This document shows positions 12,888 to 37,440 of a stretch of 64,000 nt of DNA, piece by piece. Origin of the DNA: Methylovulum sp. (GTDB taxonomy: Bacteria; Pseudomonadota; Gammaproteobacteria; Methylococcales; Methylomonadaceae); the NCBI GenBank assembly GCA_030653435.1, contig JAURZI010000111.1, positions 62,001-126,000 of the forward strand, given 5' to 3'. The translations under genes were made by a program, and so were the position numbers. Position 1 is the first letter of the stretch. Every line of letters starts with the position of its first letter. The notes under the pieces were generated by a model. That model did no database searches, was not told where the DNA came from, and saw only the letters and a program-made list of their open reading frames with translations.

Positions 12888-13075
12888 AGCACTGCCCGGT
12901 CTACAAATATAGCGATAACAAGCACTGAAGAAACGACGTTTTTACTGGTTTACCGTTTCGTGCGCCTTACTGTCCTCGGGCAATTGCCCCCACATGGCCT
13001 TCTACCTAACATCCATGCAGTCGTCCGCAGCAATTACGGTTATCAATATGGATGGGGTTTAACACGAGAATTGAT

Positions 13076-14671
13076 ATGAATAAACACTACCAACCCGCGT
13101 TACCTCAAACCGGCTGGGCCGGTTTGCAAGAAAACTGGCGTAGCGATTTACGCTCAGGCTTGCTGGTTTTTTTGCTTGCTTTGCCTTTGTGTTTGGGTAT
13201 CGCGGTCGCTTCCGGCTTCCCGCCGTCGGCAGGCATCATCACAGCGATAGTTGGTGGCGTATTCGTTTCGCGTATCAGCGGATCTTACCTGACCATCAAC
13301 GGCCCTGCCGCCGGTTTGATCGTTGTCGTGTTGGCTGCGGTGCAAGCCTTGGGTCAGGGCGATGCGCCGGCGGGTTACCGATATACGCTGGCGGCGATTG
13401 TCGTGGCCAGCGTGTTGCAGATTATGATGGGTTTTTTTAAGCTGGGACGCTGGGGCGCATTTTTCCCCGCTTCCGTGGTGCATGGCATGCTGGCGGCGAT
13501 AGGGTTGATTATCATTGCCACGCAAAGCCATGTCATGTTGGGTGTAACGCCGCAGCCCGGAGGCTTGCTGTCGGTTATCGCCCAGATTCCGCATAGCCTG
13601 TTGGCGATGAATACCGAAACGGTATTGATCAGTTTTTTAGGTTTGGAAATCATGCTGGTTTGGCCGTTGCTGAAGAGCAGAATTCCGGCACCGCTTATTG
13701 TCGTGCTGATAGGCGCGCTGTTTGCCTGGCATTTCGGCCTGGACCGGCAAACCATGCTAGGCGGGGCGGGCTATTTGGTGGCTATTCCCGATAATTTTTG
13801 GGCGGGTTTCGCTTTTCCCGATTTCTCCAAAATCAACACGCCAGCTTTTTGGGAGGCCGTGCTCAGCATCAGCTTAGTGGGTAGTCTTGAAAGTTTGCTG
13901 AGCGCGGCGGCGGTCGATAAACTCGACCCTTATAAGCGGGCTTCCGACTTAGACCGTGATTTGACGGCAGTCGGAATCGGCAATCTGGTGTGCGGCCTCA
14001 TCGGCGGCTTGCCGATGATTGCCGAAATCGTCCGCAGTTCGGCCAACATCGATAACGGCGCAAAAACGGCCTGGGCCAATTGTTTTCACGGCTTGCTATT
14101 ACTGTTGTGTGTCGTCTTGCTGCCGGGGCTAATCCAGCATATCCCCTTGGCATCATTGGCGGTGTTGCTGGCCTATACCGGTTTTCGGCTGGCTTCGCCC
14201 GACGCCTTCGCCAGGGTAAAGCTCATCGGTAACGAGCAGTTGCTGATGTTTGTCGTCACCATTATCGGGGTGTTAGTCGTAGACTTACTGACCGGTGTCA
14301 TGTTGGGCATAATTGTCAAATTGGCGATTAATCTGCTGCGTGGCGTTTGGCCCGGCAATTTGTTCAAAATCCATTTCACTATCGAGCAACAAGACGACGA
14401 TACGCTGGTTATCAAACTCTTGGGTTCGGCGCTGTTTTCTAATTTTCTGCCGTTAAAGCAGGCGCTGACCACTGTGGCGGCAGGCAAGACGATAATATTC
14501 GATTTTACGGGAGGTTATCTGATCGACCACACCGTTATGGAGTTTATTCATGACTTTAGCCTTAATTACGAGGCACAAGGCGGACTTTGCCGGCAAACAG
14601 GCTTGGCGTTGCAGACGTTTTCCGACCATGCGCTGGCAGCGCGGCTCATGACGGCGGATGATAGGAAATGA
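13076..14671 (+). CDS. SulP family anion transporter, copy 1
   Basis: A 531-residue inner-membrane protein with about 10-12 transmembrane segments and a C-terminal STAS domain (about residues 435-525). The core motifs GWAGLQENWR, LPLCLGIA and SGFPPSAGI define the SulP/SLC26 family, which moves sulfate, bicarbonate or other anions with Na+ or H+. Copy 2 directly downstream is strongly similar along its length. ATG 13076 was chosen because ACACGAGA precedes it as in copy 2; ATG 13052 is a less likely alternative. Association with an Ehr complex and DabAB downstream favours bicarbonate, but this is inference. Confidence 0.9.
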   Translation: MNKHYQPALPQTGWAGLQENWRSDLRSGLLVFLLALPLCLGIAVASGFPPSAGIITAIVGGVFVSRISGSYLTINGPAAGLIVVVLAAVQALGQGDAPAGYRYTLAAIVVASVLQIMMGFFKLGRWGAFFPASVVHGMLAAIGLIIIATQSHVMLGVTPQPGGLLSVIAQIPHSLLAMNTETVLISFLGLEIMLVWPLLKSRIPAPLIVVLIGALFAWHFGLDRQTMLGGAGYLVAIPDNFWAGFAFPDFSKINTPAFWEAVLSISLVGSLESLLSAAAVDKLDPYKRASDLDRDLTAVGIGNLVCGLIGGLPMIAEIVRSSANIDNGAKTAWANCFHGLLLLLCVVLLPGLIQHIPLASLAVLLAYTGFRLASPDAFARVKLIGNEQLLMFVVTIIGVLVVDLLTGVMLGIIVKLAINLLRGVWPGNLFKIHFTIEQQDDDTLVIKLLGSALFSNFLPLKQALTTVAAGKTIIFDFTGGYLIDHTVMEFIHDFSLNYEAQGGLCRQTGLALQTFSDHALAARLMTADDRK

Positions 14672-14694
14672 GGGTTGCACCGCGTTGATGGGTG

Positions 14695-14727
14695 GTGCAA
14701 AACAACCGCTTGGTGGTTGTTTTGCAC
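14695..14727 (+). terminator. Perfect 13-bp hairpin between the SulP copies
   Basis: GTGCAAAACAACC and its exact reverse complement flank a 7-nt loop (14708-14714), 24 bp after the stop of copy 1. The T-rich tract comes about 12 bp later (14740-14749), so this is an imperfect intrinsic terminator or an mRNA-stabilising stem. Confidence 0.6.
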
Positions 14728-14866
14728 ATCACGGCTGGCTTTATTTTTTAGGTAATCAGGAAATATTGTAAATAAGCATTGTAAATCAATTTATTATAAT
14801 TCATTGCGCTCTTGGCATGGTTATCGCTTGTTATAAGTTACAGGCTTTACACGAGAGGATAGATTA

Positions 14867-16522
14867 ATGAGTGGAATGAACTTACCCGCTTTACCAAAAA
14901 CCGGCTGGGCCGGGTTAAAAGAAAACTGGCGCGGCGATTTGCTGTCAGGTTTTCTGGTTTTTCTTATAGCAATGCCCTTATGTTTGGGCATTTCAATGGC
15001 GTCCGGCTTTCCGCCTTCTGCCGGTATTATTACGGCAATTATCGGAGGCGTGCTGGTTTCGCGCATCAACGGTTCATTCGTCACGATCAACGGCCCGGCG
15101 GCGGGTTTGATAGTGGTCGTGCTGGGCGCCGTGCAAGAATTGGGTGAAGGCGATGCCATGGCCGGTTACCGTTATACCTTGGCGGCCATCGTGGTTGCCA
15201 GCGTGTTTCAAATCCTGATGGGTTTTTTTAAGGCAGGACGCTTGAGCTCGTTTTTCCCGGCATCGGTTGTGCACGGCATGCTGGCGGCTATCGGCATTAT
15301 TATCATGGCGAAACAGATCCATGTTGTCTTAGGTGTTGCGCCGGTCAAAGGCAGCAGTTTGATCTCAACCATCGCCCAGATTCCGCACAGTATACTCAAT
15401 CTTAACCCGGAAATAGCCATCATCGGTTTTTCAGGGTTGGCGATATTGATTATCTGGTCCATGGTGAAAAACCCGGTATTAAAAATGATTCCGGCACCGT
15501 TGATAGTAGTGTTGGTCGGGATGGCTTTTGGCCGGTATTTTGATCTGGATCATGAGCATATTTATCTGTTCTTACCGGATGCGACTTTTTTACCGCATCA
15601 TGAAGAAACCGTAGGGCCAAAATTTTTAGTGTCTATTTCTGAAAATTTTATGTCCAGCTTTTATTTTCCCGACTTTTCAAAATTGGCCACGGTAGAGTTC
15701 TGGGAAGCGGTAGTCAGCATCTGTTTGGTAGGCAGTCTGGAAAGTTTGTTGAGTGCGATGGCGGTGGACAAACTGGATCCGCATAAACGGCATTCTAATT
15801 TGGATAAAGATTTGACCGCCGTCGGCGTGGGCAATCTGGTGTCTGGATTGATTGGCGGCTTACCGATGATTGCCGAGATTGTCCGTAGTTCGGCTAACGT
15901 CAATAATGGAGCAAAAACGCAATGGGCCAATTTTTTTCACGGCTTGTTTTTATTATTGTTCGTCGCGTTGTTTCCTCGCCTGATTCATAGCATTCCGTTA
16001 GCGGCGTTAGCGGCCTTGCTGGTGTTTACCGGTTTCCGCCTGGCTTCGCCGAAAGAATTCGCCAAGGTGATGGGCTTCGGTAAAGAACAATTGTTTATGT
16101 TCGTCGTGACGATAGTCGGCGTGATAGCGACCGATTTCTTAGTCGGCGTGGCTATCGGCATAGCGACCAAGTTTACGATACACCTGATTCGCGGCGTCAA
16201 ACTGAATAATTTGTTCAAGATTAATTTTGAGATTACCCGTCAGAATAACGGCACGATTTTGGTTGCTATTTGCGGTGCGGCTATTTTCTCGAACATGATG
16301 GCGTTAAAAGAGGCGCTGATGGGTTTGGAGCCAGGCAAGACGGTGGTCTTCCAATTGAACGACGCTTATTTGCTGGATCATACGGTCATGGAATTCTTCC
16401 ATGACTTCCAGCATGACTATGAAGTGCGGGGCGGGCAATGTCAGTTTATGGGCATGGAATACCACGAAGCCTACGCAGACCATCCGTTGGCCGCACGGCG
16501 CATGAAGCAAGATTGGGCTTAA
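14867..16522 (+). CDS. SulP family anion transporter, copy 2
   Basis: A 551-residue paralogue of the gene just upstream, with the same start context (ACACGAGAGGA before the ATG) and the same motifs GWAGLKENWRGD, MPLCLGIS and SGFPPSAGI. It has multiple transmembrane segments and a C-terminal STAS domain (about residues 450-545). It carries an extra loop at about residues 228-250 with several acidic and histidine residues (HHEETVGPKF) that copy 1 lacks. The two copies probably arose by tandem duplication and have diverged. Each has its own hairpin after it, suggesting separate expression levels. Substrate likely bicarbonate or sulfate; not decided by sequence. Confidence 0.9.
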   Translation: MSGMNLPALPKTGWAGLKENWRGDLLSGFLVFLIAMPLCLGISMASGFPPSAGIITAIIGGVLVSRINGSFVTINGPAAGLIVVVLGAVQELGEGDAMAGYRYTLAAIVVASVFQILMGFFKAGRLSSFFPASVVHGMLAAIGIIIMAKQIHVVLGVAPVKGSSLISTIAQIPHSILNLNPEIAIIGFSGLAILIIWSMVKNPVLKMIPAPLIVVLVGMAFGRYFDLDHEHIYLFLPDATFLPHHEETVGPKFLVSISENFMSSFYFPDFSKLATVEFWEAVVSICLVGSLESLLSAMAVDKLDPHKRHSNLDKDLTAVGVGNLVSGLIGGLPMIAEIVRSSANVNNGAKTQWANFFHGLFLLLFVALFPRLIHSIPLAALAALLVFTGFRLASPKEFAKVMGFGKEQLFMFVVTIVGVIATDFLVGVAIGIATKFTIHLIRGVKLNNLFKINFEITRQNNGTILVAICGAAIFSNMMALKEALMGLEPGKTVVFQLNDAYLLDHTVMEFFHDFQHDYEVRGGQCQFMGMEYHEAYADHPLAARRMKQDWA

Positions 16523-16545
16523 AGCGCACCATCGGGATGGGGCTC

Positions 16546-16585
16546 ACATTACGGGCGGTCTGGTTTGCCGTCCGCTCCGTAATGT
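16546..16585 (+). terminator. Hairpin after SulP copy 2
   Basis: ACATTACGG (16546-16554) pairs with CCGTAATGT (16577-16585), with further inner GC pairing. No T-run follows, so it may be a Rho-assisted or weak terminator separating the transporters from the Ehr genes. Confidence 0.45.
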
Positions 16586-16700
16586 TTCAGGCCATGTCGC
16601 TGATAAAATGAGGGACGGACAACCCGCGTCCTGCTTTGAAAGCCACGAAGATGGGCAAAGTTTTGCCCGCTTCTTGGCTTTACCCATTTAGGAATTTTTA

Positions 16701-18830
16701 ATGATCCTTCTATTAGCCTATTGCGCGGTATTACTGAGCTTTGTTTCCGGTTTGCTGGCGCTGTTGATGAATCAGCGACACGCTTTGTTGGCGCTGTGCC
16801 AAACCTGTTTTAAAAAATTTCCGGGTAGCCGTAATCAGTGCCGGGCATTTGTTTTTGGCAATCTTGATGAGCAGCGTTTCCCGGTTTTTTTACGGCAGGC
16901 GGTGTTTGTTATATTGGGTTTATCCGGGCTGTTTGCCGTGCTGGCAGGTTTAAGTGTGTTGGTCAGTAAAGATGTTATCACCGACCAAATCGGTTTGGGT
17001 TTGCCCTGGTTACCCTGGCATGTCCGTTTCGATGGTCTTTCCGGTTTCTTCTTTTTAATTATTGGCATAGCGGTTGGTGCGGTCAGCCTTTATGGGCCGG
17101 GTTATGTCAGTGGCTACCAAGAAAGTCGGCATCCTTTTGCGGTTTTAGGTTTGTTTACCGGCTTGTTTGTTGCCGGCATGTTGTTGGTTTTATTAGCCGA
17201 CGATGCGTTCATGTTTATGATCGCCTGGGAACTGATGTCGGTGGCTAGTTATTTTCTGGTGGCGTTTCAGCATGAAAATGCGGCTAACCGCCGGGCGGCT
17301 TTTCTCTATTTACTGATGGCGGAGGTCGGTGCGTTGGCGATTATTTTAGGCTTTGGCGTCCTGGCCAGTTTTGCCGATGGTTTTACCTTTGATGCGCTCC
17401 GTGAATCACACTTATCGGCAACCTGGGCGAGTATCGCTTTTGGGCTGGCATTGCTGGGTTTCGGCATGAAGGCGGGGATAGTCCCTGTTCATGTCTGGTT
17501 GCCGGAAGCTCACCCGGTCGCGCCGTCGCATATTTCCGCATTGATGAGCGGGGTCATGCTTAAGGTGGCCTTGTATGGCTTGATACGTTTTAGTTTTGAT
17601 TTACTCGCTGATATACAGTGGCAATGGGGCGTGGTGCTATTAATCCTGGGGACGGTTTCGGCATTGGGCGGTATTCTTTATGCGATGGTGCAAGCCAATC
17701 TAAAACGCTTGCTGGCTTACAGTTCCGTCGAAAATATAGGCATTATTTTTATGGTGCTGGGTTTGGCGATGATTTTTATGGATAACGGTCACCCCCAACT
17801 GGCCGCATTAGGCTTTCTGGCGGCTTTGTTTCACGCCTTCAACCATGCCTTGTTCAAGAACTTGCTATTCCTGGGTGCCGGCATACTCCATCATCAGACC
17901 CATGAATTGAACATCGACATGATGGGCGGGCTGATTAAAAAAATGCCGCAAACCAGCCTGCTATTTTTGATAGGTTGCATGAGTATCTCTTCGCTGCCGC
18001 TATTTAACGGCTTTGTATCCGAATGGCTAGCTTTTCAAACCGCGTTACAGGCCGATGTGTTGGATAACGGCGTTTTGCGAAGTTTAATTCCGGTCGCAGC
18101 AGCGGCTTTGGCCTTGACGGCGGCCTTGGCGGCGGCGTGTTTTGTCAAAGTGTTCGGGCTGATATTCCTGGGGCAATCGCGCTCGCAGCATAGTGAAAAA
18201 GCGCGTGAAGTCGCCGATAAAACCATGCTGGCAGGGCCTATGCTATTAGCTGCATTATGCTTTTTAATAGGCATTTTCCCAGGGCTGGTCATTAACTTAA
18301 TCAACAGCGTTTCGGAACAGTTATTAGGGCAGACCATGCCCAATGATTCGGCTTTGGGTTGGTTGTGGCTGGCGCCGGTTTCTGCCCAGCAGGCCTCTTA
18401 TTCGCCGGCATTAGTGCTGATAGGCGCGCTTATCGCAGGTTGCGTCAGTTTTTGGTATTTGCGCCGTGACCCTGTCCTGAAAACCATGCGTAGGGCAGCG
18501 CCCTGGGATTGCGGTTTCGGAGGTTTAACGCCGCGTATGCAATATAGCTCCAACGCTTTCAGCATGCCTATACGACGGATTTTCGCCAAAGTATGGCTGA
18601 TAGACGAACGCATCGACAAAGACATGCAAGGTGCGATGGACCAGGATGTGGCGGCCGTGCATTATCACATTGATATTCAGGATCATAGCTGGCCGCTTTT
18701 GTATCAACCGATAGGGCATGGGATTAACACGCTGGCCAAACAGGTCGGGCGCATACAAACTGGGAATATCCGCACTTATTTAGGCTATTCGTTTGTCACG
18801 TTGGTATTGATGTTATGGGTGATTAGCTGA
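16701..18830 (+). CDS. Ehr complex antiporter-like subunit (HyfB-type)
   Basis: A 709-residue integral membrane protein related to HyfB/HycC and NuoL/MrpA-type proton-translocating subunits. The ion-channel block is recognisable: MIAWELMSVASYFLVAF (conserved glutamate of TM5), LPEAHPVAPSHISALMSG, and NLKRLLAYSSVENIG with its key lysine. The C-terminal 130 residues (from about 580) form the HyfB-type extension. TAGGAATTTTTAATG gives a good start. It opens a tight run of six genes, hyfB-C-E-F-G-I-like, with gaps or overlaps of 25 bp or less. Its predicted role is to move H+ or Na+ across the inner membrane. Confidence 0.88.
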   Translation: MILLLAYCAVLLSFVSGLLALLMNQRHALLALCQTCFKKFPGSRNQCRAFVFGNLDEQRFPVFLRQAVFVILGLSGLFAVLAGLSVLVSKDVITDQIGLGLPWLPWHVRFDGLSGFFFLIIGIAVGAVSLYGPGYVSGYQESRHPFAVLGLFTGLFVAGMLLVLLADDAFMFMIAWELMSVASYFLVAFQHENAANRRAAFLYLLMAEVGALAIILGFGVLASFADGFTFDALRESHLSATWASIAFGLALLGFGMKAGIVPVHVWLPEAHPVAPSHISALMSGVMLKVALYGLIRFSFDLLADIQWQWGVVLLILGTVSALGGILYAMVQANLKRLLAYSSVENIGIIFMVLGLAMIFMDNGHPQLAALGFLAALFHAFNHALFKNLLFLGAGILHHQTHELNIDMMGGLIKKMPQTSLLFLIGCMSISSLPLFNGFVSEWLAFQTALQADVLDNGVLRSLIPVAAAALALTAALAAACFVKVFGLIFLGQSRSQHSEKAREVADKTMLAGPMLLAALCFLIGIFPGLVINLINSVSEQLLGQTMPNDSALGWLWLAPVSAQQASYSPALVLIGALIAGCVSFWYLRRDPVLKTMRRAAPWDCGFGGLTPRMQYSSNAFSMPIRRIFAKVWLIDERIDKDMQGAMDQDVAAVHYHIDIQDHSWPLLYQPIGHGINTLAKQVGRIQTGNIRTYLGYSFVTLVLMLWVIS

Positions 18831-18855
18831 TGGTTAGGTATCTAGGGGTAATACG

Positions 18856-19800
18856 ATGAACGGCTTGATCGCAGCCATACAAACGCTGTTATTTGTCGCG
18901 CTGGCGCCATTGTTGGCAGGTTGGCTTAAAGTGTGCAAATGTCGGTTACAAAACCGCAAGGCGCCGCCCTTGCTGCAACCTTATCGGGATTTAATCAAAC
19001 TTACCCATAAACAACCGGTAGTCGCCGGACAGGCATCGTGGATATTCACCAAGGCGCCGTATATTATCTTTTCGGCAACCATGCTGGCGGCATCGGTGGT
19101 GCCGTTGTTTGCCGTTGATTTACCGACTTCGGCCAGCGCCGACGTGATCGTCATGGTGGGGTTTTTTGCTTTTGCACGGTTTTTTCTGGCGTTGGCGGGC
19201 CTCGATATCGGCACCGCATTCGGCGGCATGGGTTCGTCCAGGGAAATGACGATTTCATCATTGGCGGAACCTGCAATGCTGATGGCGGTTTTTACGCTGG
19301 CCATGACGGCATCAACGACCAACCTGTCGATTGCCATTACGCATGTATTAAATGAAGGGCTGGTGCTAAGGCCGTCGTTTTTATTTGCGCTGTTTGCGTT
19401 AATACTGGTTGCTGTCGCCGAAACAGGCAGGATCCCCATTGATAATCCGGCAACGCATCTGGAACTGACGATGATTCATGAAGCGATGATCCTTGAATAC
19501 AGCGGCCGCCATCTGGCGCTGATTGAATGGGCAAGCCAATTGAAACTGATGATTTACGGCGTATTGATAGCCAATATCTTTTTGCCCTGGGGGATTGCCG
19601 AAAACTTTTCTGTCGAAGCGTTGGGCTATGGCTTGCTGGCGATTTTAGCCAAGCTCGCCGTATTGGCGGTTTTGCTGGCACTATCGGAGACCCTGGTTGC
19701 CAAAATGCGCCTGTTCCGGGTGCAGGAATACCTGAGCTTCGCCTATTTATTAGGCTTGTTGGGCATGTTGAGCCACATCATTTTGGAGGCGTCACGCTGA
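18856..19800 (+). CDS. Ehr complex membrane subunit (HyfC/NuoH-type)
   Basis: A 314-residue protein with about eight membrane helices. It belongs to the NuoH/HycD/HyfC family, which anchors the peripheral arm and forms the quinone or ion-coupling site. Family-typical stretches are GWLKVCKCRLQNRKAPPLLQ near the N-terminus and ETGRIPIDNPATHLELTMIH with conserved acidic residues (about residues 192-211). It begins 25 bp after the HyfB-like gene with TAGGGG upstream. Its last base is the first base of the next start. Confidence 0.9.
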   Translation: MNGLIAAIQTLLFVALAPLLAGWLKVCKCRLQNRKAPPLLQPYRDLIKLTHKQPVVAGQASWIFTKAPYIIFSATMLAASVVPLFAVDLPTSASADVIVMVGFFAFARFFLALAGLDIGTAFGGMGSSREMTISSLAEPAMLMAVFTLAMTASTTNLSIAITHVLNEGLVLRPSFLFALFALILVAVAETGRIPIDNPATHLELTMIHEAMILEYSGRHLALIEWASQLKLMIYGVLIANIFLPWGIAENFSVEALGYGLLAILAKLAVLAVLLALSETLVAKMRLFRVQEYLSFAYLLGLLGMLSHIILEASR

Positions 19801-20549
19801 TGAATATTGAGCTACAGGATATCTATACGCAGGCCATTTTATCAATGGCTGCCCTGGTGGGTCTCACTTCATTTTTAATGTTGGGACAAAGCCGCTTGTT
19901 ACGGCTAATTTTTGTGTTTGCGTTTCAGGGCTTGTTATTAACCATGACGACAATGGTCGCGGCTTACAGCACGGACAATCAGCATTTGTACATTTCAGCC
20001 GTGTTGACTTTGGCGCTGAAAGTCGTGTTTATTCCATGGATGCTAAGGCGTGAAGTGTTGAAGATGAATTTGCACCGGGATATTCAGGCATTAAGCAATC
20101 AAACGACATTGATGCTGGGCGGCGCCAGCTTGATGGTGTTCAGCTATTATGTCTTGCATCCTATTGTACAAACAACATCGCCTGTCATGCTGAATGCGCT
20201 GGCGGTAAGCCTTTCTGTCGTGTTATTAGGCATGTTGCTGATGATTTCACATCGTCAGGCTATTGCCCATGTGGTCGGTTTCATGTCGATAGAAAACGGT
20301 TTGTTTTTTGCCGCCATCGTCGCTACGAATGGCATGCCTATGGTGGTTGAGCTCGGCGTAGCCTTCGATGTATTGGTGGCTGCGGTATTGTTCGGCATTT
20401 TCTTCTTCCATATCCGTACCAGCATTGATTCACTGGACGTGGATCTGTTAAACCGTTTGCATGAGGTGGATGAACAGGGGGCAAGGCATGACAAAAACCG
20501 GTCTGCCGTTATCAATCCCCATACTGCCGACTACGAGGTGAACCGATGA
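19800..20549 (+). CDS. Ehr complex membrane subunit (HyfE-type)
   Basis: A 249-residue membrane protein corresponding to HyfE, whose N-terminal part resembles NuoK/MrpC. About six helices; the conserved acidic region is HVVGFMSIENGLFFAA (glutamate about residue 166). The soluble tail is polar and longer than in E. coli HyfE (216 residues). The start at 19800 overlaps the HyfC stop by one base (TGATG); a longer in-frame extension upstream lies wholly within hyfC and is not credible. It overlaps the next gene by 4 bp. Confidence 0.85.
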   Translation: MNIELQDIYTQAILSMAALVGLTSFLMLGQSRLLRLIFVFAFQGLLLTMTTMVAAYSTDNQHLYISAVLTLALKVVFIPWMLRREVLKMNLHRDIQALSNQTTLMLGGASLMVFSYYVLHPIVQTTSPVMLNALAVSLSVVLLGMLLMISHRQAIAHVVGFMSIENGLFFAAIVATNGMPMVVELGVAFDVLVAAVLFGIFFFHIRTSIDSLDVDLLNRLHEVDEQGARHDKNRSAVINPHTADYEVNR

Positions 20550-22012: not shown

Positions 22013-23580
22013 ATGCTTGCTGGACAATAGAGTTTTTGAACCGACTCAGTACAGACATTACCGTCGCGCAAAGCGAAGCGGCATCAACGACTATATGGCA
22101 AATCGAAAGCCGGCATTGGCAACGGTTTGCTGAACTGGCCAGCCAATGCCAGGTTCGTTGGGTTGCAGGATGGGCGGAGCACCTTGATGCCCGGTTTCTG
22201 GTCAACGCCTGTTTTGAAAACGCCGGCGTTTATATTGTGCTGAGAACGGCCATCAGCTGCGCCACTCCAGAGTTACCCTCACAAGCCACCGTTTATCCGG
22301 CCGCCAATCGTAGCGAACGCCATACCCAGGATATGTTTGGCATCCACTTTATAGGGCACCCCGATAAACGCCGGTGGACGCGTCACCAGGCTTGGGACAA
22401 ACACAGCTATCCCTTACGCAAAGACTTCCCTGTACACGGCAAGCCGCAAGACATTACGCCGCCCGATATGGATTATCCCTTTATAAAATCCCACGGCGCC
22501 GGCGTTTATGAAATTCCAGTTGGCCCCGTACATGCGGGGATTATTGAGCCCGGACATTTTCGCTTCCAGGCGGTCGGCGAGCTGATTTTAAATCTGGAAG
22601 AACGCTTGGGTTATGTACACAAAGGCATAGAAAAAATTGCCGAGGGCAGGGCGCCGGAAGCTTTAGCCCGTTTAGCAGGGCGGGTTTCCGGTGATACTAC
22701 CGTCGGACACTGCTGGGCGGCGTGCCGGGCCATGGAACAAGCGGCAGGTATTGAAATTCCGGTGCGCGCATCCTTGCTGCGCGGAATTTTGGCGGAGCGC
22801 GAACGCATTGCCAACCATCTGGGCGATATAGGCGCACTTTGTAATGATGTCGCGTTTGTCTTTGCACAAATGCAGTTTACCCGTTTGCGGGAAGGGTGGT
22901 TGCGCGGCAATGCAAGCTATTTCGGCCACCGTTTATTAATGGACAGGATTATTCCAGGCGGGGTTGCGTGCGATGTGTCGGACTCGGCTTGTAGCTTGAT
23001 TAAACAGGAGATTGTTCAGTTACGCGCGGAGCTGTCCGAGCTTGTCCCCGCGCTGGATTTGAACTCGTCACTGGAAGACCGGTTTTATACCGCAGGCTTG
23101 CTGTCCACAGAAATCGCCGCCGCTTTCGGTACGCTGGGTTATGTGGGTCGCGCCAGCGGACAGAATTTTGATGTGCGCCGCGATGCCGCTTACCCGCCCT
23201 ATACTCAGGTAAGGGTTAGGGTTCCGGTGGAAGCGCAAGGTGATATTGCGTCAAGGTTCTGGGTGCGTTACAAGGAAATCAATGCGTCCTTGCATTTGAT
23301 AGAAGATTTTATCGATTTGCTTGCTGCCGGTGATATTCGTGCCGAATGGCAAACACCACAGGCGGATAGTGAAAGTTTGGGCATTGTTGAAGGCTGGCGC
23401 GGTGAGATTACGGCTTACATCCGTTTCGGCAGCGACAATAAAATTGCCCGTTATTATCCGCGCGACCCCAGCATCCTGAATTGGCCTGCGCTGGAAAAAC
23501 TGGTTCTTAATAATATCGTGCCGGATTTTCCTGTTTGCAACAAATCCCTGAACGGCTCTTATTCAGGCAACGATTTATAG
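22009..23580 (+). CDS. Ehr complex large subunit (HyfG-like, lacks NiFe site)
   Basis: A 523-residue fusion of an N-terminal NuoC-like domain (about residues 1-145, with RSERHTQDMFGIHF) and a NuoD/[NiFe]-hydrogenase large-subunit-like domain (about 165-523). Aligning by eye to HycE, the first nickel motif RICGICGFAH is here RVSGDTTVGH, so the cysteines are S227 and T230. The second motif SLDPCYSC is SLNGSYSG, giving S517 and G520. All four nickel-iron ligands are lost, so it should not make H2. This is the hallmark of energy-converting hydrogenase-related (Ehr) complexes. It overlaps hyfF by 4 bp. Confidence 0.9.
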   Translation: MNACWTIEFLNRLSTDITVAQSEAASTTIWQIESRHWQRFAELASQCQVRWVAGWAEHLDARFLVNACFENAGVYIVLRTAISCATPELPSQATVYPAANRSERHTQDMFGIHFIGHPDKRRWTRHQAWDKHSYPLRKDFPVHGKPQDITPPDMDYPFIKSHGAGVYEIPVGPVHAGIIEPGHFRFQAVGELILNLEERLGYVHKGIEKIAEGRAPEALARLAGRVSGDTTVGHCWAACRAMEQAAGIEIPVRASLLRGILAERERIANHLGDIGALCNDVAFVFAQMQFTRLREGWLRGNASYFGHRLLMDRIIPGGVACDVSDSACSLIKQEIVQLRAELSELVPALDLNSSLEDRFYTAGLLSTEIAAAFGTLGYVGRASGQNFDVRRDAAYPPYTQVRVRVPVEAQGDIASRFWVRYKEINASLHLIEDFIDLLAAGDIRAEWQTPQADSESLGIVEGWRGEITAYIRFGSDNKIARYYPRDPSILNWPALEKLVLNNIVPDFPVCNKSLNGSYSGNDL

Positions 23581-23588
23581 GAGCAGCC

Positions 23589-24098
23589 ATGTTGAGACTT
23601 TTTAGCAAAATCCTGAAAACAGGCGTCATCACGGAACGCTGTAAAACACCCAAGAACGATGAATTGGAACAACTGGGCATTGAGATCAAACGCCGTATCG
23701 ACAAGAAATTTTCCGGCAGCATCGCCATCAGGGAAGTCGATGCCGGTTCCTGCAACGGTTGCGAGTTGGAAATCCATGCCTTAAATAACCCCTATTATGA
23801 TATTGAACGCTTTGGCATCCATTTTGTGGCGTCGCCCAGGCATGCCGATGTGTTATTGGTGACGGGCCCGGTATCTCGGCATATGCAAACAGCGTTACTG
23901 CGTACTTACGAGGCGACGCCAAACCCGAAATGGGTGGTGGCGGTTGGCGATTGCGCGGTCTGCGGGGGAGAATTCGGAGTGTCTTATGCCAGCTGCGGCG
24001 CGGTTTCCAATGTGATTCCGGTCGATGTGACGATTCCAGGCTGCCCGCCGACGCCGCTGGCCTTGATGAAGGGATTGCTGGGGTTGATTAAAGCATAA
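23589..24098 (+). CDS. Ehr complex Fe-S subunit (HyfI/NuoB-like)
   Basis: A 169-residue subunit of the NuoB/HycG/HyfI family carrying the N2-type [4Fe-4S] cluster. Ligands remain intact: CNGCE (C55, C58), GDCAVCGG (C122, C125) and GCPP (C152). So the proximal iron-sulfur cluster is kept although the partner large subunit has lost its nickel site. It lies 8 bp after the large subunit with AGGAGCAGCC just upstream. No ferredoxin-like subunit (HyfA/HycF/NuoI) follows, so the electron donor or acceptor is not obvious. Confidence 0.9.
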   Translation: MLRLFSKILKTGVITERCKTPKNDELEQLGIEIKRRIDKKFSGSIAIREVDAGSCNGCELEIHALNNPYYDIERFGIHFVASPRHADVLLVTGPVSRHMQTALLRTYEATPNPKWVVAVGDCAVCGGEFGVSYASCGAVSNVIPVDVTIPGCPPTPLALMKGLLGLIKA

Positions 24099-24132
24099 CG
24101 GCAGCTCAGGATAGGCTAGCTGTTGTCTTGTG

Positions 24133-24168
24133 AATCCTAATGGTGACCTAAGCCATTAGGATTTTTTT
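24133..24168 (+). terminator. Intrinsic terminator of the Ehr gene run
   Basis: An 11-bp perfect stem (AATCCTAATGG with its complement, 9-nt loop at 24144-24152) is followed directly by a run of T. It sits 35 bp after the last Ehr stop. Confidence 0.85.
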
Positions 24169-24174
24169 ATGTAG

Positions 24175-24238
24175 GGTAGGCATCGCCTATCAGAACAGAA
24201 TGATGGTAAGGATCAACATAAAAACTGCGATGCGTACC
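24175..24238. repeat. Imperfect inverted repeat (GTAGGGT/GCATCGC type)
   Basis: GGTAGGCATCGC (24175-24186) and GCGATGCGTACC (24227-24238) are complementary at 11 of 12 positions around a 40-nt loop. It resembles a small palindromic repeat unit, distinct from the GGGCGTGC family elsewhere in the window. Confidence 0.45.
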
Positions 24239-24246
24239 GAAAGCAG

Positions 24247-24280
24247 TGCTGTTTCCCAAGTCGCAACTTGGGAAACAGCA
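24247..24280. repeat. Perfect 15-bp hairpin with 4-nt loop
   Basis: TGCTGTTTCCCAAGT (24247-24261) is followed by the loop CGCA and then its exact reverse complement (24266-24280). No T-run follows on either side, so it does not look like a terminator. It may be a REP-like element, an operator or an RNA structure. Confidence 0.7.
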
Positions 24281-24704
24281 TCAACACGCCAAATGCCTGT
24301 ATATAGCCGTGCGAACTATTACTCCCGGCCTGAAACCCAATCTTTGTTGCTATGGCAGCTGTAGCGCATGATACAGCTAAACAACCGTTATATTTATTGC
24401 ATATTAATAGCTTTAATAATCAATTGGTTGGATGGTCTGTTCGATCGATATTTCAGGCGCGTCGGCAAACGGCAATTTATTGTCGGTATGCTTAAGTCCG
24501 GGCCATTGCTTGAGTAAGCCCAACCGGTTCAAATCAACCACTGATGGGTGGTTTTCGCTATGATCTTCTTAGTGCAGGATATCAATAATTTAAATACCAT
24601 TATAAATCAATATGCTATAAAAAATATAACATGGCGTATTAATTGCTTATACACAATAAAGCACGTTAGGTTTAACTGCCGGCAATTAATCGAGATTAAA
24701 TTCC

Positions 24705-27290
24705 ATGACTAAAGCATCGCCAAAAATAAATTTACAAGACTATCCAGAGTTGCACGCGTTTGATCTGGATGAAAGCATCGCTCATATCGCCCATTGGCTA
24801 CCCACACAAGGGCCTATCAAGGATTTTATCCACCACAATACCCTGCATGCCGTCCAGCATCACCCGTTCCATAAAGGTGTTGCCATAGCGGCAAAAGTGT
24901 TTGGCGCACGCAGTTACCTGCCGGCAGCCGATTATCAGGCCCTGTATCGGCAAGGCAGGATCAAGGATTTTGCCGTAGATTGGGCCATCGCACATGCCGG
25001 TTACGGACTGGAGCAGCATTCGGCATTACGTGAAAAGTTATTTGTCGTGGATAGTAATGAGCATTATCCGCCGGTTTCGCTAGCTAACCACGGTATCCGC
25101 AATAGTTGGTTGACGCATTTGGAAATTGATTTGAATTCCCAGGTGCATCCTGTTTTGTTTCGCTTGTTGGCCAACTTTTTGGATCAGGGCATCAGTCGTT
25201 GGACGTTGTCTAAAAACGGTGAGTCCTTCTGGAATTGCGTCTGGCGCTTGGCGCAAAACAGCCTGCTGCCGCTTTATCCTTTCGATGATGTGGTCGTGCG
25301 CGAATTATTAAACCAGAGCCCAAATGAAGTCATTCTGGCTTGTCTGGAACGGATAGTCGGTGCTGAAGACCTGTATGAACAGTATCTGTTGGAGATGATA
25401 TTGGCCCATCCCGGCTGGTCGGGCATGGTGCGGCTTATCGAGCTTGACCCTAAATCCCTGCTGGAACGCCGGGACATTTCGCTGAAAGAAATGATCGCGG
25501 TGGAGATGCTTGCCGAGCTCGCTATCCTGCGTAAAAAACGTGGCGCTGGGTTTGCTGCGGTTGCCGCCATGCCGGATACCGACGACATCCCGCTGTTGCA
25601 CGATTATGAAGACAAAGCGGTCGTGCCGTTAACACTGAAAATATGGCATGAAGCCATGGAATATTCGCTGCATGCCGAATTGTTGGCAGCGCTAAAGGCC
25701 CAAGATGCCCCGGCAAAACCTAAGGCTGCGCCGATTGCACAAGCCTTCTTTTGTATCGACGACCGCGAATGTTCGTTGCGCCGTTATTTGGAAGAACTAA
25801 ACCCTGCTATTGAAACCTTTGGTGCCGCCGGTTTTTTTGGCATTGATTTCCTGTACCAGGGGTTTGACGATGCTTATCCGGTTGCCCAGTGCCCCAATAT
25901 CTTGACTCCTAAGCACTTGATTATGGAGTCAAACCTGAAGCCTGAAACAGAGAAGGACGATTTGGCGGAGGGTTTTTCCGATTTGCATATCATGCCGCAT
26001 TCCTTATTTCGGGGTTGGCTGTTTACACAAATCTTAGGTATGGGCTATGCGGCACGCATGCTTTGGGATGTGTTCCGCCCTGGTTCACAGTTGTTGAAAA
26101 TTAAGAAATTAAGCGAAGTGGAAGCGCATACCCATTTGCATTTGTTGCGGGAAAACGATGAGCCGGATGCAGACGGGCGCTTGCTGGGGTTTTCATTTAC
26201 CGAGATGGCCGACAAGATTGAAGGCTTGTTGCGTAATATCGGCTTGACTAAAAATTTCGCAGCACTGGTCGTTGTCGTTGCCCACGGTTCCAGTAGTGTC
26301 AATAATCCGCATTTTGCCGCTTATGATTGCGGCGCTTGTTCGGGTAAGCCGGGTGCGCCTAATGCCCGGGCGTTTGCCTGGATGGCCAACCACGCGTCGG
26401 TGCGGGAGATTTTGCGGGAGCGCGGCATAGATATTCCAGACAACAGCTATTTTGTCGCCGCTTTGCATAATACCAGCCGTGATGAAATCACTTATTTCGA
26501 TAAACATCTGTTTGCACAGTATCCGGCCGAGGCCTTGCAGGCTTTCCAGGGGACTATGCGGCAGGCTTTGCAGAAAAATGCGCTGGAGCGTTGCCGCTGG
26601 TTCGAACTGGGGCCGCAGTCCAATGCCCATGACGAGGCGCACGAGCATGTTATCGCCCGCGCATCGTCGATATTCGAGCCGCGGCCTGAGCTTAACCATT
26701 CCAATAATCTGTATTGCGTGGTTGGCAGACGGTCATTGACCCGGGGATTATTTCTCGACCGGCGCTCATTTCTGCATTCTTACGATCCAGGTTCCGACCC
26801 TGACGGTAAGCTCATCGTTAAAATTCTGTCGGCGATTATTCCGGTTTGCGGCGGCATTAATCTGGAATACCTGTTCTCGCGCATCGACAACTCGATTTAT
26901 GGCGCCGGGACCAAGCTGCCCCATAATGTTATCGGCCTGTTAGGCGTTGCCAACGGTGTCGAAGGCGATTTACGCACCGGCCTGCCATCGCAGATGATAG
27001 AAGTTCATGAACCTGCACGGTTGTTGATCGTGATCGAACAAACGACGGCGCTGCTGGATAAGGCTTTTGCAAACCTGGGCGGACCATTGAGGGCGTGGCT
27101 GGATAACGACTGGGTCAGATTAGCCGCATGCCATCCCGATAACCGTGGGCTGTTTTTTTACCACAGCACGGGTTGGGAGCCGGTTGAGCTGCCTGAAGAC
27201 TGTGCCGTACCCTCGGCTAACCGCTCGGAAACCATTATCGTCGGCCAACGCGCAACGATTCCGGTGCATTTATTAAGGAGCCATGCATGA
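24705..27290 (+). CDS. dabA: Inorganic carbon uptake subunit DabA (DUF2309)
   Basis: An 861-residue protein of the DUF2309/DabA family, the cytoplasmic zinc subunit with a beta-carbonic-anhydrase-like site that hydrates CO2 vectorially. Expected zinc and active-site residues are present: C350 and D352 in FCIDDRE, H527 in VVAHGSS and C542 in YDCGACSG. Their spacing closely matches the C351/D353/H524/C539 set described for Halothiobacillus DabA2. It partners with the NuoL-like DabB, which follows with a 4-bp overlap. Together they accumulate bicarbonate using the ion gradient. In a methanotroph it could supply bicarbonate to anaplerotic carboxylases or a Calvin cycle. Confidence 0.93.
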   Translation: MTKASPKINLQDYPELHAFDLDESIAHIAHWLPTQGPIKDFIHHNTLHAVQHHPFHKGVAIAAKVFGARSYLPAADYQALYRQGRIKDFAVDWAIAHAGYGLEQHSALREKLFVVDSNEHYPPVSLANHGIRNSWLTHLEIDLNSQVHPVLFRLLANFLDQGISRWTLSKNGESFWNCVWRLAQNSLLPLYPFDDVVVRELLNQSPNEVILACLERIVGAEDLYEQYLLEMILAHPGWSGMVRLIELDPKSLLERRDISLKEMIAVEMLAELAILRKKRGAGFAAVAAMPDTDDIPLLHDYEDKAVVPLTLKIWHEAMEYSLHAELLAALKAQDAPAKPKAAPIAQAFFCIDDRECSLRRYLEELNPAIETFGAAGFFGIDFLYQGFDDAYPVAQCPNILTPKHLIMESNLKPETEKDDLAEGFSDLHIMPHSLFRGWLFTQILGMGYAARMLWDVFRPGSQLLKIKKLSEVEAHTHLHLLRENDEPDADGRLLGFSFTEMADKIEGLLRNIGLTKNFAALVVVVAHGSSSVNNPHFAAYDCGACSGKPGAPNARAFAWMANHASVREILRERGIDIPDNSYFVAALHNTSRDEITYFDKHLFAQYPAEALQAFQGTMRQALQKNALERCRWFELGPQSNAHDEAHEHVIARASSIFEPRPELNHSNNLYCVVGRRSLTRGLFLDRRSFLHSYDPGSDPDGKLIVKILSAIIPVCGGINLEYLFSRIDNSIYGAGTKLPHNVIGLLGVANGVEGDLRTGLPSQMIEVHEPARLLIVIEQTTALLDKAFANLGGPLRAWLDNDWVRLAACHPDNRGLFFYHSTGWEPVELPEDCAVPSANRSETIIVGQRATIPVHLLRSHA

Positions 27291-29158
27291 ACGCATTATT
27301 ACTGGCCTGCCAGTTTTTACCCTTATTAGGTTTTTTAACCATCGCTTTATTCGGCAATACTGAGAAAAAAATCGCGGCCCTCAGCTTCTGGACAACCCAT
27401 GCCATGGGGCTGAGTATTATTGTGTTGTTGGCGATTTGGGCTTACAGCGGCTTTTCTGCCCATGAATTTGAATGGTTCACATTGTACGAGCGCGGTAGTT
27501 ACCGGTTCCCTCTCCTGTTCTTTCTCGACAAAGTCAGCGCCGTTTATCTGTTCGCCGTATGGGTCATCTTCTCGGTTATCGTCCGTTATTGCAGGAATTA
27601 TTTGCATAGGGAAAGCGGCTATAAACGGTTTTTTATGACTATTTTCAGCTTTGCATTCGGCTTGAATATGGTTGTGCTGTCCGGTTCGATAGATATGTTG
27701 TTTGCCGGCTGGGAAATTGTCGGTGTTTCATCATTTTTATTGATTGCTTTTTATCGGCACCGTATCCAGCCGGTACGCAATGCCTTGCGGGCGTATACGG
27801 TTTACCGGTTTTGCGACATCGGTTTATTGCTGGGTGCGTGGATGGGCCATTTACTGTTCCACGAGAGCGACCACTTCAGCCAGTTATCGCTGTTGTTTGA
27901 ACACAATGCGTCGCCAGCCAGTTTTCCGGCTTTATTGCTGATGTCGTTGCTGATTTTTATCGCTGCATCGGGCAAATCCGCGCAGTTTCCTTTCTGTTTC
28001 TGGCTACCCAGGGCGATGGAAGGGCCGACGCCGTCCAGCGCGATTTTTTACGGCGCGCTGTCGGTGCATTTGGGGGTGTTTTTATTACTGCGTACCTCGC
28101 CGATCTGGAGCTATCACATCCTGACCCGGACGTTGTTGTTTGGTATTGGTTTGCTGACCGTGCTGATTGCGAGTTTCGCGGAGCAAACCCAGTCGAATAT
28201 CAAAGGCCAAGTGGCTTATGCGTCAATTACCCAGGTAGGCTTTATGTTTATGGAGCTGGCATTGGGATTGGAAACCTTGGTATTGGTGCATTTTTTGGGC
28301 AACGCGTTTCTGCGTTGTTACCAGTTGCTGGTGTCGCCGTCTATCGTCGCCCACATGTTACGTGTCGAAGGCGCCATAGATACGGCTATTGATACTAAAA
28401 AACCGTCTTTGCAAGCCTATTTACCGGTCTCGATACGCGACACGTTGCCGGAAGTCTTGCAAAACACGCTGTATGTGTTCGCGTTGCAGGAAGGTAACCT
28501 GGAGTTGTTAGTCCGTTCGATACTCTGGACACCGCTAAAACAAATGGGCGCGAATATTAACCGCGCTAATGTCTGGTTAAAACTGGCGATTGGCGCGGGT
28601 ATTATCATGGTGTTTATGCTGGCGGTATTGACGGGTGTGATGGATTTCACTTATCTGGCTGTGCCTGCCGTGCTGGCTATGGTCATGGCATCGTTAAGCG
28701 CGTTTAGCCAGAAACACAGTTTTATCAGCATATGGAACGCCGTTGCGTTGAGTTGTTTATTAGCTGCCAGTGCGGTCTGGTTTTTACACCCCAGCGACTG
28801 GTCGTATATCTTGTTATTTGCTACGGGTATCATCCCTTCCTGGCTGCTGGGCATCCTGGTACTTGGCAAATTGCCTAAAAATGAGAACTTCCGGGATTCC
28901 CCCTTTGCCTATCGCGCCATGGCGGAAACCAATCCCGGCTTATCGCTGCTATTGTTCCTGAGCTTTTTGGGTCTGGTCGGTTTTCCGATCACGCCGGCTT
29001 TTATCGGCGAAGACTTGCTGCTTTATCATGCCAGTAGCCACCAGCATTCGTGGGTTGCGGCATTAATTGCCGTATGTTTTGTTATTAACGGCATTGCCGC
29101 AGCACGCGTATTCCTGCGTATCTGTATGGGCAGGCCATCTGAAATTTCCGAGGCTTAA
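27287..29158 (+). CDS. dabB: Membrane subunit DabB (NuoL/MrpA-like)
   Basis: A 623-residue integral membrane protein with about 14-16 predicted helices, related to NuoL and MrpA. Typical motifs are MLFAGWEIVGVSSFLLIAFYR (about residues 135-155, conserved glutamate), LPRAMEGPTPSSAIFYGALS and NIKGQVAYASITQVGFM. In DAB complexes it is the ion-translocating partner that drives DabA. Start and dabA stop overlap (ATGA), the standard DAB arrangement. It lacks the NuoL C-terminal lateral helix pattern and complex I neighbours, so it is not a complex I gene. Confidence 0.92.
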   Translation: MNALLLACQFLPLLGFLTIALFGNTEKKIAALSFWTTHAMGLSIIVLLAIWAYSGFSAHEFEWFTLYERGSYRFPLLFFLDKVSAVYLFAVWVIFSVIVRYCRNYLHRESGYKRFFMTIFSFAFGLNMVVLSGSIDMLFAGWEIVGVSSFLLIAFYRHRIQPVRNALRAYTVYRFCDIGLLLGAWMGHLLFHESDHFSQLSLLFEHNASPASFPALLLMSLLIFIAASGKSAQFPFCFWLPRAMEGPTPSSAIFYGALSVHLGVFLLLRTSPIWSYHILTRTLLFGIGLLTVLIASFAEQTQSNIKGQVAYASITQVGFMFMELALGLETLVLVHFLGNAFLRCYQLLVSPSIVAHMLRVEGAIDTAIDTKKPSLQAYLPVSIRDTLPEVLQNTLYVFALQEGNLELLVRSILWTPLKQMGANINRANVWLKLAIGAGIIMVFMLAVLTGVMDFTYLAVPAVLAMVMASLSAFSQKHSFISIWNAVALSCLLAASAVWFLHPSDWSYILLFATGIIPSWLLGILVLGKLPKNENFRDSPFAYRAMAETNPGLSLLLFLSFLGLVGFPITPAFIGEDLLLYHASSHQHSWVAALIAVCFVINGIAAARVFLRICMGRPSEISEA

Positions 29159-29229
29159 TAAAGCCTTAACTCATACGGTAAGCCTTGTTGGGCGGCTCCG
29201 TTACTTCACATATCTTAAAGGGATAAAAA

Positions 29230-29949
29230 ATGATTAAGAAAAAAATAAAAGCCTTGGGCGGAGCGATGCTGCTGTTAAGCTCTGCTTTTATCCTGGCTGA
29301 TGCGACGGCTGATGACGACGTGTTTCAGGATTCCGGCAGTTGGTTGCAAGTTGTCGGTGAAGGCAGTCTGAAAACTATCGACCCTAGCCTGGAAAAAGGC
29401 CGGATCTGGGTGGAAGGCCAGTCCCGGTTCGATAACGATTGGAATCACTGGTATCAGGGTATGGTGCGGGCGGCGGTTGGCTATTCGCTGAGCGACAGAG
29501 CAACGGTATGGGCAGGCTATACTTGGTTGCCCACGCAAAATCTGGGCAAGAGCTATGTATCCCAGCAGGATGTTTGGCCCGCTTTCCGTTATGTCATGCC
29601 CACCCGTTTAGGCACGCTGTCTTTCAGGACGATGGTCGAAAGCAATTTCCTGCAGGGTAGCGAGGTGCGTGTCCGTCCGCGCCAGATGATACGCTTTATG
29701 CACCCATTGCAAGCCGAGCCGCGCTTAAGCCTGATTGCCTGGGATGAATTTTTTGTCCGATTGAATTCAACACCTTATGGTGGGCAATCGGGATTCGACC
29801 AAAACCGCGCCTTTGCCGGTTTAGGTTGGTCTTTTAATAACAATATCCGGGCCGAAGCGGGGTATATGAACCAGTATCTCGATGATGCCACCCATACCAA
29901 TAATACAATGCGGAACTTGATCATGGGTTCGGTGTTTATTAATTTTTAA
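29230..29949 (+). CDS. DUF2490 outer-membrane beta-barrel-like protein
   Basis: A 239-residue protein with a signal peptide (cleavage near ADATADD) and repeating amphipathic strands rich in W, Y and F, ending in aromatic F-I-N-F as outer-membrane barrels do. The WYQGMVRAAVGYSLSDRATV and GYTWLPTQN stretches fit the DUF2490 family, whose function is not established. AAAGGGATAAAAAATG gives a strong start 71 bp after dabB, so it is probably transcribed with dabAB. A passage for anions or another exchange role beside dabAB is only a guess. Confidence 0.72.
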   Translation: MIKKKIKALGGAMLLLSSAFILADATADDDVFQDSGSWLQVVGEGSLKTIDPSLEKGRIWVEGQSRFDNDWNHWYQGMVRAAVGYSLSDRATVWAGYTWLPTQNLGKSYVSQQDVWPAFRYVMPTRLGTLSFRTMVESNFLQGSEVRVRPRQMIRFMHPLQAEPRLSLIAWDEFFVRLNSTPYGGQSGFDQNRAFAGLGWSFNNNIRAEAGYMNQYLDDATHTNNTMRNLIMGSVFINF

Positions 29950-37412: not shown

Positions 37413-37440
37413 GTGTAGTTGTCTAAGATTTGATATGTTG

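Follow-up and report, generated by a model that had tools for sequence, protein, structure and literature searches.

DAB2 of Halothiobacillus neapolitanus (solved structure 9rd0) is a CO2 pump made of a zinc-site protein, DabA, and a NuoL-like partner, DabB; an extract of PMC13144422 (PubMed Central, PMC) reports that its activity requires the zinc ligands and an Asp-Arg dyad, and that a glutamate of the finger, Glu444, is essential. Ehr complexes resemble hydrogenases, and an extract of a 2023 comammox paper (PMC10284858) takes the loss of the NiFe-binding CxxC motifs as their criterion and calls their function unknown. Among SulP transporters of Thiomicrospira pelophila, one passed and another failed an inorganic-carbon transport test (extract of PMC12628692), and DUF2490 proteins are a putative porin family without established function (extract of PMC4827864). 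Here we describe a locus in which two SulP genes, an Ehr operon, dabAB and a DUF2490 gene stand together, in a stretch of 64,000 nucleotides (the window) from a Methylovulum sp. genome (contig JAURZI010000111.1). From its relatives across the order Methylococcales we propose that Ehr and DabAB are alternative cores of one regulated SulP cassette and that the task of Ehr is, on balance most likely, the supply of inorganic carbon. The eleven genes, identified from open reading frames (ORFs) and profiles, are:

13052..14671, + strand: SulP1, inner-membrane anion transporter (PF00916, 200 bits)
14867..16522, + strand: SulP2, inner-membrane anion transporter (PF00916, 212 bits)
16701..18830, + strand: EhrB, HyfB/NuoL-like ion-channel subunit (NF005086, 818 bits, cut-off 667)
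18856..19800, + strand: EhrH, NuoH/HyfC-like (PF00146, 127 bits)
about 19800..20549, + strand: EhrE, HyfE-like (NF008556, 78 bits, below the cut-off of 136; ORF residues 104-311)
20546..22012, + strand: EhrF, HyfF/NuoN-like ion-channel subunit (NF005045, 771 bits, cut-off 543)
22009..23580, + strand: EhrCD, like NuoC plus NuoD and the hydrogenase large subunit (PF00346, PF00329; aligned with 7z0s_E)
23589..24098, + strand: EhrI, NuoB/HyfI-like (PF01058; NF005012, 131 bits, above the cut-off of 116)
24705..27290, + strand: DabA, short type (PF10070, 752 bits; aligned with 9rd0_A, DabA2)
27287..29158, + strand: DabB, NuoL-like proton conduit (PF00361, 133 bits; match to 9rd0_B, DabB2)
29230..29949, + strand: DUF2490 beta-barrel, probably of the outer membrane (PF10677, 165 bits)

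The initial annotation had placed these genes in this order on one strand with no unrelated gene between them, and we agree, having seen none from SulP1 to DUF2490, after which a cysG-like gene follows on the opposite strand. Its assignment of DabAB to the CO2 pump type is supported by the zinc-site residues of the solved pump DAB2, which DabA retains. Its starting position, 13076, is a second in-frame ATG of SulP1, a gene that itself starts at 13052. The starts of EhrE, EhrCD and EhrI are chosen ATGs inside longer ORFs that open at 19527, 21964 and 23535. Packing is tight, with an overlap of 1 base between ehrH and ehrE and of 4 bases each for ehrE/ehrF, ehrF/ehrCD and dabA/dabB.

Exchange of Ehr and DabAB within SulP cassettes

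Our survey covered 201 genomes of Methylococcales, the order of the host, which is taken to be an aerobic methanotroph and whose genome (4.66 Mb, 161 contigs) has Methylovulum miyakonense HT12 (G028, NZ_KB913025.1) as genus-mate; labels in G, L and C denote genomes, loci and contigs. Ehr was counted at 56% identity or more, after exclusion of partial matches (two of half length in G159, and short ones in G038 and G105), of five matches at 35-40% and of everything at 32% or less. The short type of DabA was counted at 60% identity or more among the matches listed, leaving aside a truncated copy in G101 and the second piece in G108. Counts of SulP likewise rest on the matches listed, which cover 133 of the 162 genomes with a SulP match, as do the 82 loci of the longer DabA type used as a control. 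Ehr occurs at 95 loci in 91 of the 201 genomes, and short DabA at at least 66 loci in at least 65. Among the matches listed, 41 of the 95 Ehr loci and 33 of the 66 short-DabA loci have a SulP gene no more than 10 kb away, compared with 1 of the 82 long-DabA loci, an internal control which indicates that SulP does not accompany every DabA; the host itself carries two additional genes of the longer type on other contigs. The pairing of SulP with Ehr and with short DabA is therefore beyond chance. The full set of SulP, Ehr and DabAB is rare, as Ehr and short DabA lie no more than 20 kb apart in only three of the 201 genomes among the matches listed (the host, M. miyakonense and G153, with DabAB reversed in the last). 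Among the 133 genomes with a listed SulP match, 57 have Ehr only, 43 short DabAB only, 17 both and 16 neither (odds ratio 0.11, p 1e-8, uncorrected for kinship), and among the matches listed for all 201 the corresponding counts are 72, 46, 19 and 64 (odds ratio 0.37, p 0.002, equally uncorrected). Ehr and DabAB are more often alternatives than partners.

The genes that accompany the two cores are of the same kinds. We fetched the neighbourhoods of 80 of the 94 Ehr loci and 60 of the 65 short-DabA loci other than the window, with the places in G028 and G153 standing twice. Contig ends included, SulP is present in 55 of the 80 Ehr regions and 34 of the 60 DabA regions, and DUF2490 in 29 and 24. 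By gene clustering, a HisKA histidine kinase is near 23 Ehr and 12 DabA loci, and a response regulator with a sigma-54 activator domain (PF00158) near 21 and 15, two of the 15 (L116, L144) being distant in the tree. The fullest Ehr cassette, in the order SulP, Ehr, DUF2490, kinase, activator, is found at L048, L053, L058, L060, L064 and L068, and Methylobacter luteus, M. marinus A45 and M. sp. BlB1 are among the carriers of Ehr cassettes (80 named loci). Methylobacter tundripaludum SV96 carries SulP, Ehr and DUF2490. The fullest DabAB cassette, SulP, DabA, DabB, DUF2490, kinase, activator, is found at L114 (where two genes intervene), L129, L170 and L172, with SulP divergent in the last three and DabA in two ORFs in L172; L115 is a DabAB cassette without DUF2490. 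At 3 of the 80 Ehr loci (L089 in G064, L095 in G055, L096 in G045) a full-length SulP gene is inserted between ehrF and ehrCD, at a fourth a SulP gene cut by the contig end lies directly 5' of ehrCD, and at a fifth there is a SulP remnant. The kinase at L055 (16506-17969), the only cassette histidine kinase that was scanned for domains, has no Pfam domain N-terminal to HisKA.

Gene trees of the accompanying proteins were used to follow the core. On FastTree trees, the label must switch between Ehr and DabAB 9 times for SulP (at least 7 of them required by well supported branches), 6 times for DUF2490 (at least 4), 6 times for the kinase (at least 6) and 8 times for the activator (at least 4). 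A single Ehr-only clade is rejected by the approximately unbiased test (p-AU) for the activator (33 rows, 3.5e-51) and the kinase (35 rows, 1.3e-40), using quick IQ-TREE runs that left out two long-branch activator rows, and the core was therefore swapped more than once. Genus g2 has an Ehr cassette in G167 and a DabAB cassette in G125, and their activators share 91% identity. The trees thus show, as far as sequences can, exchange of the core between Ehr and DabAB, and the finding that most relatives combine the same transporter and regulator genes with just one of the two cores suggests a shared task. In the window, SulP1 groups with the second SulP of SulP-SulP-Ehr loci (the Ehr-linked L040, L045 and L049), and SulP2 nests with the SulP genes that precede DabAB in two genus-mates, L119 (G158) and L122 (G072). 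Judged from these trees, the locus looks like two merged cassettes, with Ehr placed between SulP2 and DabA.

Promoter elements and regulators of the two versions

Candidate regulatory elements of the window, all between its genes, are:

14693..14708, + strand: weak copy of the dyad TGGTT-N6-AACCA (2 mismatches)
14813..14828, + strand: sigma-54 type -24/-12 site 5' of SulP2, TGGCATGGTTATCGCT (21 of 24 points)
24132..24164, + strand: intrinsic terminator-like hairpin 3' of ehrI (13 pairs, of which 4 are G-C, followed by a run of T)
24525..24540, + strand: dyad CGGTTCAAATCAACCA (1 mismatch to TGGTT-N6-AACCA), a putative binding site for the activator of the dab unit
24632..24647, + strand: sigma-54 type site 5' of DabA, TGGCGTATTAATTGCT (21 of 24 points)

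Sites were scored against what we take to be the sigma-54 consensus, with a threshold of 21 of 24 points, which 14 sites in the window reach on both strands together. The SulP2 site lies 39 bases before its gene, a score as high being reached in 56 of 2000 shuffles of that region, and the DabA site lies 58 bases before dabA (13 of 2000 shuffles). The gap of 606 bases between ehrI and dabA holds the 13-pair hairpin with its T tail, because of which Ehr and DabAB are probably separate transcripts; the hairpin terminator and the second promoter-like region between Ehr and DabA suggest that the locus is made up of two transcription units. The terminator scan gave 38 sites against 26 (standard deviation 4.7) in shuffles, of which only this hairpin was used, and a sigma-70 scan gave no excess, with 20 sites in the window against 21 in shuffles.

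The same elements recur before both versions of the cassette. Sigma-54 type sites precede SulP at 36 of 56 Ehr loci and 23 of 27 DabA loci, against 21 of 503 other genes, and are found before DabA (23 of 54), EhrB (10 of 34), DUF2490 (2 of 34) and the kinase (3 of 25). The dyad, with at most one mismatch, precedes SulP at 18 of 48 Ehr loci and 13 of 26 DabA loci against 9 of 404 other genes, DabA in 19 of 52 cases and EhrB in 5 of 31; once genes in cassette-gene regions had been purged from the background, exact copies of the dyad there fell from 10 of 444 to 2 of 404. These promoter counts are not independent, as the loci are related and SulP and DabA often have one common region. Dyad and promoter are phased at 11.2 bases for SulP at Ehr loci (22) and 11.3 bases for SulP at DabA loci (16 of 18, the outlying distances 214 and 237 being left out), with 0 of 2000 random sets equal; the EhrB set (10) is weaker, 33 of 2000 random sets being equally strong. 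The host has its kinase/activator pair on contig C127, separate from the locus of the window; the kinase is 73% and the activator 87% identical to copies from Ehr cassettes, and 70% and 85% to copies from DabAB cassettes. A search of the host for activator orthologues gave a best match at 82% identity and a runner-up at 36%. Related regulators and common promoter elements are thus shown, at the level of motifs and gene trees, for both cassette versions. A whole-genome regulon defined by the composite motif gave 4 and 8 matches against 5 and 1 when reversed, and we claim no further members. Scans of the window gave no Rfam match and no transfer RNA. Positions 36001-38000 of the window, with minus-strand ORFs at 35846-36397 and 36390-37412, have a G+C content of 0.34 against a background near 0.5 and may have been acquired.

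Proposed task of Ehr and competing explanations

The Ehr operon encodes a hydrogenase-4-like set of six subunits in which NuoL-type, NuoH-type, NuoCD and NuoB parts are present. Compared with subunit 5 of formate hydrogenlyase (7z0s_E), EhrCD is without all four cysteines that bind NiFe, the motif RVCGIC being replaced by RVSGDT and DPCYSC by NGSYSG. At least 97% of 74 EhrI copies retain each of the cluster cysteines (C73, C76, C140 and C170 in ORF numbering), and EhrI is predicted to hold one [4Fe-4S] cluster. Because the NiFe cysteines are replaced while the cluster cysteines are kept, the complex is, on sequence grounds, assigned to Ehr rather than to the hydrogenases; no ferredoxin-like electron-entry subunit is encoded in the Ehr operon of the window. 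In DabA, the zinc-site residues C350, H527 and C542 and the D352-R354 dyad are each kept in at least 97% of 60 copies. DabB has Glu143 at the position of Ile151 in DAB2 in all 52 copies, and as Gln442 of DabA also replaces a DAB2 residue, the proton coupling may differ from that of DAB2; with glutamine in place of the finger glutamate, we label DabAB only as DAC 'like'. The best match of SulP2 among solved structures is 6ki1, which is titled a low-affinity sulfate transporter and which we take to be BicA. A SulP relative found in Klebsiella, a distant one (35% identity), overlaps a gene annotated as carbonic anhydrase. A plasmid of Methylomagnum ishizawai (L272, NZ_AP019784.1, 6788-13593) carries a SulP with 59% identity to SulP2, some 2.4 kb beyond an operon annotated amoABC. 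The DUF2490 model has a predicted local distance difference test score (pLDDT) of 85, 11 strands and a low-confidence N-terminal helix, and the protein ends in Phe; the nearest solved folds, PcoB and NanC, are weak porin-like matches, none at E 0.001 or better.

We propose the following mechanism. The fullest cassette would consist of SulP, a core (Ehr or DabAB), DUF2490, a histidine kinase and a sigma-54 activator, and the window would join both versions, SulP1/SulP2 with Ehr and then, past the terminator and with its own sigma-54 type site, DabAB with DUF2490. We infer that DUF2490 is an outer-membrane pore that admits an anion, and that SulP is the inner-membrane carrier which moves bicarbonate or a related anion, beside a core that is either DabAB or Ehr. 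DabAB would hydrate CO2 to bicarbonate at the expense of the proton gradient, and Ehr would be an alternative energised complex serving the same end, in which ion movement through EhrB, EhrF and EhrH may be coupled to the capture of inorganic carbon. The inorganic-carbon task is proposed because of the known activity of DabAB. We also infer that SulP carries bicarbonate, that Ehr has a CO2-related function and an electron partner, and that CO2 regulates the cassette. A bolder version, which we put forward tentatively and hold to be less probable, makes Ehr a third kind of energised system for inorganic carbon, after NDH-1MS and DAB. In this version, Ehr would descend from a hydrogenase, would have lost the NiFe centre, would use complex I-type ion translocation to accumulate CO2 or bicarbonate with SulP, and could be exchanged for DabAB, both being controlled by one sigma-54 two-component regulator.

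Several observations weigh against this proposal. The two SulP proteins, presumed carriers of bicarbonate, score 154 and 133 bits against a BicA cut-off of 880 (NCBIfam equivalog). DabA has Gln442 at the position of the essential Glu444 in all 60 copies. Beta-carbonic anhydrase is found in 197 of the 201 genomes, with five matches in the host, so an extra CO2-hydrating system is not plainly needed. The host genome gave no match to the large subunit of ribulose-bisphosphate carboxylase/oxygenase (RuBisCO). Some loci lack the transporter, 25 of the 80 Ehr regions and 26 of the 60 DabA regions being without SulP (some of them ending at a contig edge), and 17 of the 133 SulP genomes carry both cores. 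Labels cluster strongly on all four trees, where shuffled labels need on average 28-30 changes for SulP, 17 for DUF2490, 10 for the kinase and 12 for the activator; as fewer changes are needed than with shuffled labels, the exchange of cores is, by this reading of the trees, occasional and not free. On the regulatory side, no sigma-54 type site was found at SulP1. The dyad was derived from the same sets as were used for counting it, and its excess is greatest at a spacing of 6, with smaller excesses at 3 (7 of 48 SulP genes at Ehr loci against 7 of 404) and at 10; a held-out set of 16 SulP regions, taken from Ehr loci only, has a sigma-54 type site in 14 and the dyad in 2. Summed, the genome-wide composite search described above yielded 12 matches (the site at dabA is one of them), against 6 in the reversed control. 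The link to SulP is also rare outside the order. A sample of 398 genomes from the phylum gave 72 with an Ehr match, and after dropping the host itself, one half-length piece and nine at 33-34%, 61 further genomes had Ehr relatives at 39% identity or more; 8 of these 61 have a SulP relative (E 1e-30), in one of them adjacent to Ehr, and an Ehr cluster on a Burkholderia stagnalis plasmid has no SulP annotated nearby.

Three extensions of the proposal were given up. RuBisCO-linked carbon concentration was rejected for a host without a match to the RuBisCO large subunit, complementarity with carbonic anhydrase was uninformative with the enzyme in nearly every genome, and a wider SulP-Ehr pairing beyond the order was rejected on the single adjacent case. 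A separate observation concerns the mobility of Ehr: in a record listed as a Candidatus Methylocalor cossyra plasmid (L273, OZ026885.1, 6248-14034), an Ehr operon has transposase genes flanking it on both sides, and the 25-kb stretch has no SulP annotated. Judged from this plasmid operon, Ehr may move between replicons.

The strongest competing explanation, which we consider unlikely without being negligible, accepts the cassette and assigns it to the handling of pH, ions or other anions such as sulfate, formate or oxalate, with DabAB ion-coupled as proposed for MpsAB and SulP not a bicarbonate carrier. SulP is a family of mixed substrates and both transporters fall below the DauA as well as the BicA cut-off, the regulator is of NtrC type, carbonic anhydrase is nearly universal, and DabA has Gln442 in place of the essential Glu444 of DAB2, as DabB has Glu143 in place of Ile151. 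Against it, DabA retains the zinc-site residues required for DAB2 activity, the best solved match of SulP2 is 6ki1, for all its sulfate title, and the Klebsiella relative overlaps a carbonic anhydrase gene. We therefore prefer inorganic-carbon supply as the task of both cores.

The initial annotation had suggested a combined system in which Ehr sets or uses the ion gradient for carbon uptake. Its partnerships stand, since SulP recurs with Ehr and with DabAB, and DUF2490 with both. Synteny in this genome alone, which it named as a refutation, nearly holds for the full set (3 of 201 genomes) but not for SulP-Ehr and SulP-DabAB taken singly, and a single machine in which Ehr builds the gradient that DabAB and SulP spend is improbable. 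Such a machine would fit the common strand of Ehr and DabAB in the host and in M. miyakonense, and the two NuoL/NuoN-type subunits and the NuoH type of Ehr, but most SulP genomes have one core only, a terminator-like hairpin separates the two in the window, and a respiring cell has a proton gradient already. Still less probable is the chance meeting of a hydrogenase-like operon and a DabAB operon beside two SulP genes. The rarity of the Ehr-DabAB linkage would agree with it, but SulP accompanies each core much more often than it does the long DabA used as a control, both cores also have DUF2490, kinase and activator as recurrent neighbours, and the promoter elements are common to both; chance is contradicted for SulP-Ehr and SulP-DabAB and is a possibility only for the junction of Ehr and DabAB. 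That Ehr is a decaying hydrogenase left beside useful transporters, as the loss of all four NiFe cysteines might suggest, is hardly credible. It is contradicted by the conservation of EhrCD, where some 70 positions with charged residues, Cys, His or Tyr are each the same in 97% or more of 81 copies, and of the EhrI cysteines.

Comparison with described systems

Ehr, DabAB and SulP are known families. Among the leading matches in open-access PMC, no publication was found that places SulP with Ehr or has Ehr exchanged with DabAB as an alternative core, and two that name both SulP and energy-converting hydrogenase concern, in the extracts available there, sulfate reduction instead. A hydrogenase-4-like/SulP carbon operon in Acidithiobacillus was not borne out, PMC6458275 containing neither 'hyf' nor 'hydrogenase'. 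Ehr-like operons are common in the order, at the 95 loci counted here, and a cassette whose core can be Ehr or a CO2 pump of known type, with transporter, barrel and regulator of the same kinds, makes the function called unknown in the extract of PMC10284858 directly testable in culturable methanotrophs. If Ehr does serve carbon supply, it would add an energised inorganic-carbon route and a system for comparison with complex I, hydrogenases and DAB.

Among transporters, the SulP proteins of the window have family membership in common with BicA and with SulP-CS of T. pelophila (extract of PMC12628692), and 6ki1 as the nearest structure to SulP2; they differ from BicA in scores that, at 133-154 bits, lie far under its cut-off. 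DabAB has the same PF10070 DabA with zinc-site residues, the same NuoL-like DabB and the same 4-base gene overlap as DAB2 of H. neapolitanus. It differs in Gln442 for Glu444 and Glu143 for Ile151, and in sitting in a SulP/DUF2490/sigma-54 cassette that can hold Ehr instead. In comparison with group 4 [NiFe] hydrogenases (Hyf), the large subunit of the window is without the four required NiFe cysteines. The Ehr operon of the window encodes no further subunit that might correspond to CupA or CupB of NDH-1MS, or to a ferredoxin-docking part. Cyanobacterial NDH-1MS, a complex I-like membrane arm serving CO2 capture (extract of PMC13144422), is a comparison of the works-like kind only. The Ehr complexes themselves are the nearest relatives in make-up, alike in subunits, in loss of the NiFe ligands and in one predicted [4Fe-4S] cluster; what sets the Methylococcales sets apart is that they often occur with SulP, an outer-membrane barrel and a two-component sigma-54 regulator, and that they are exchanged with DabAB.

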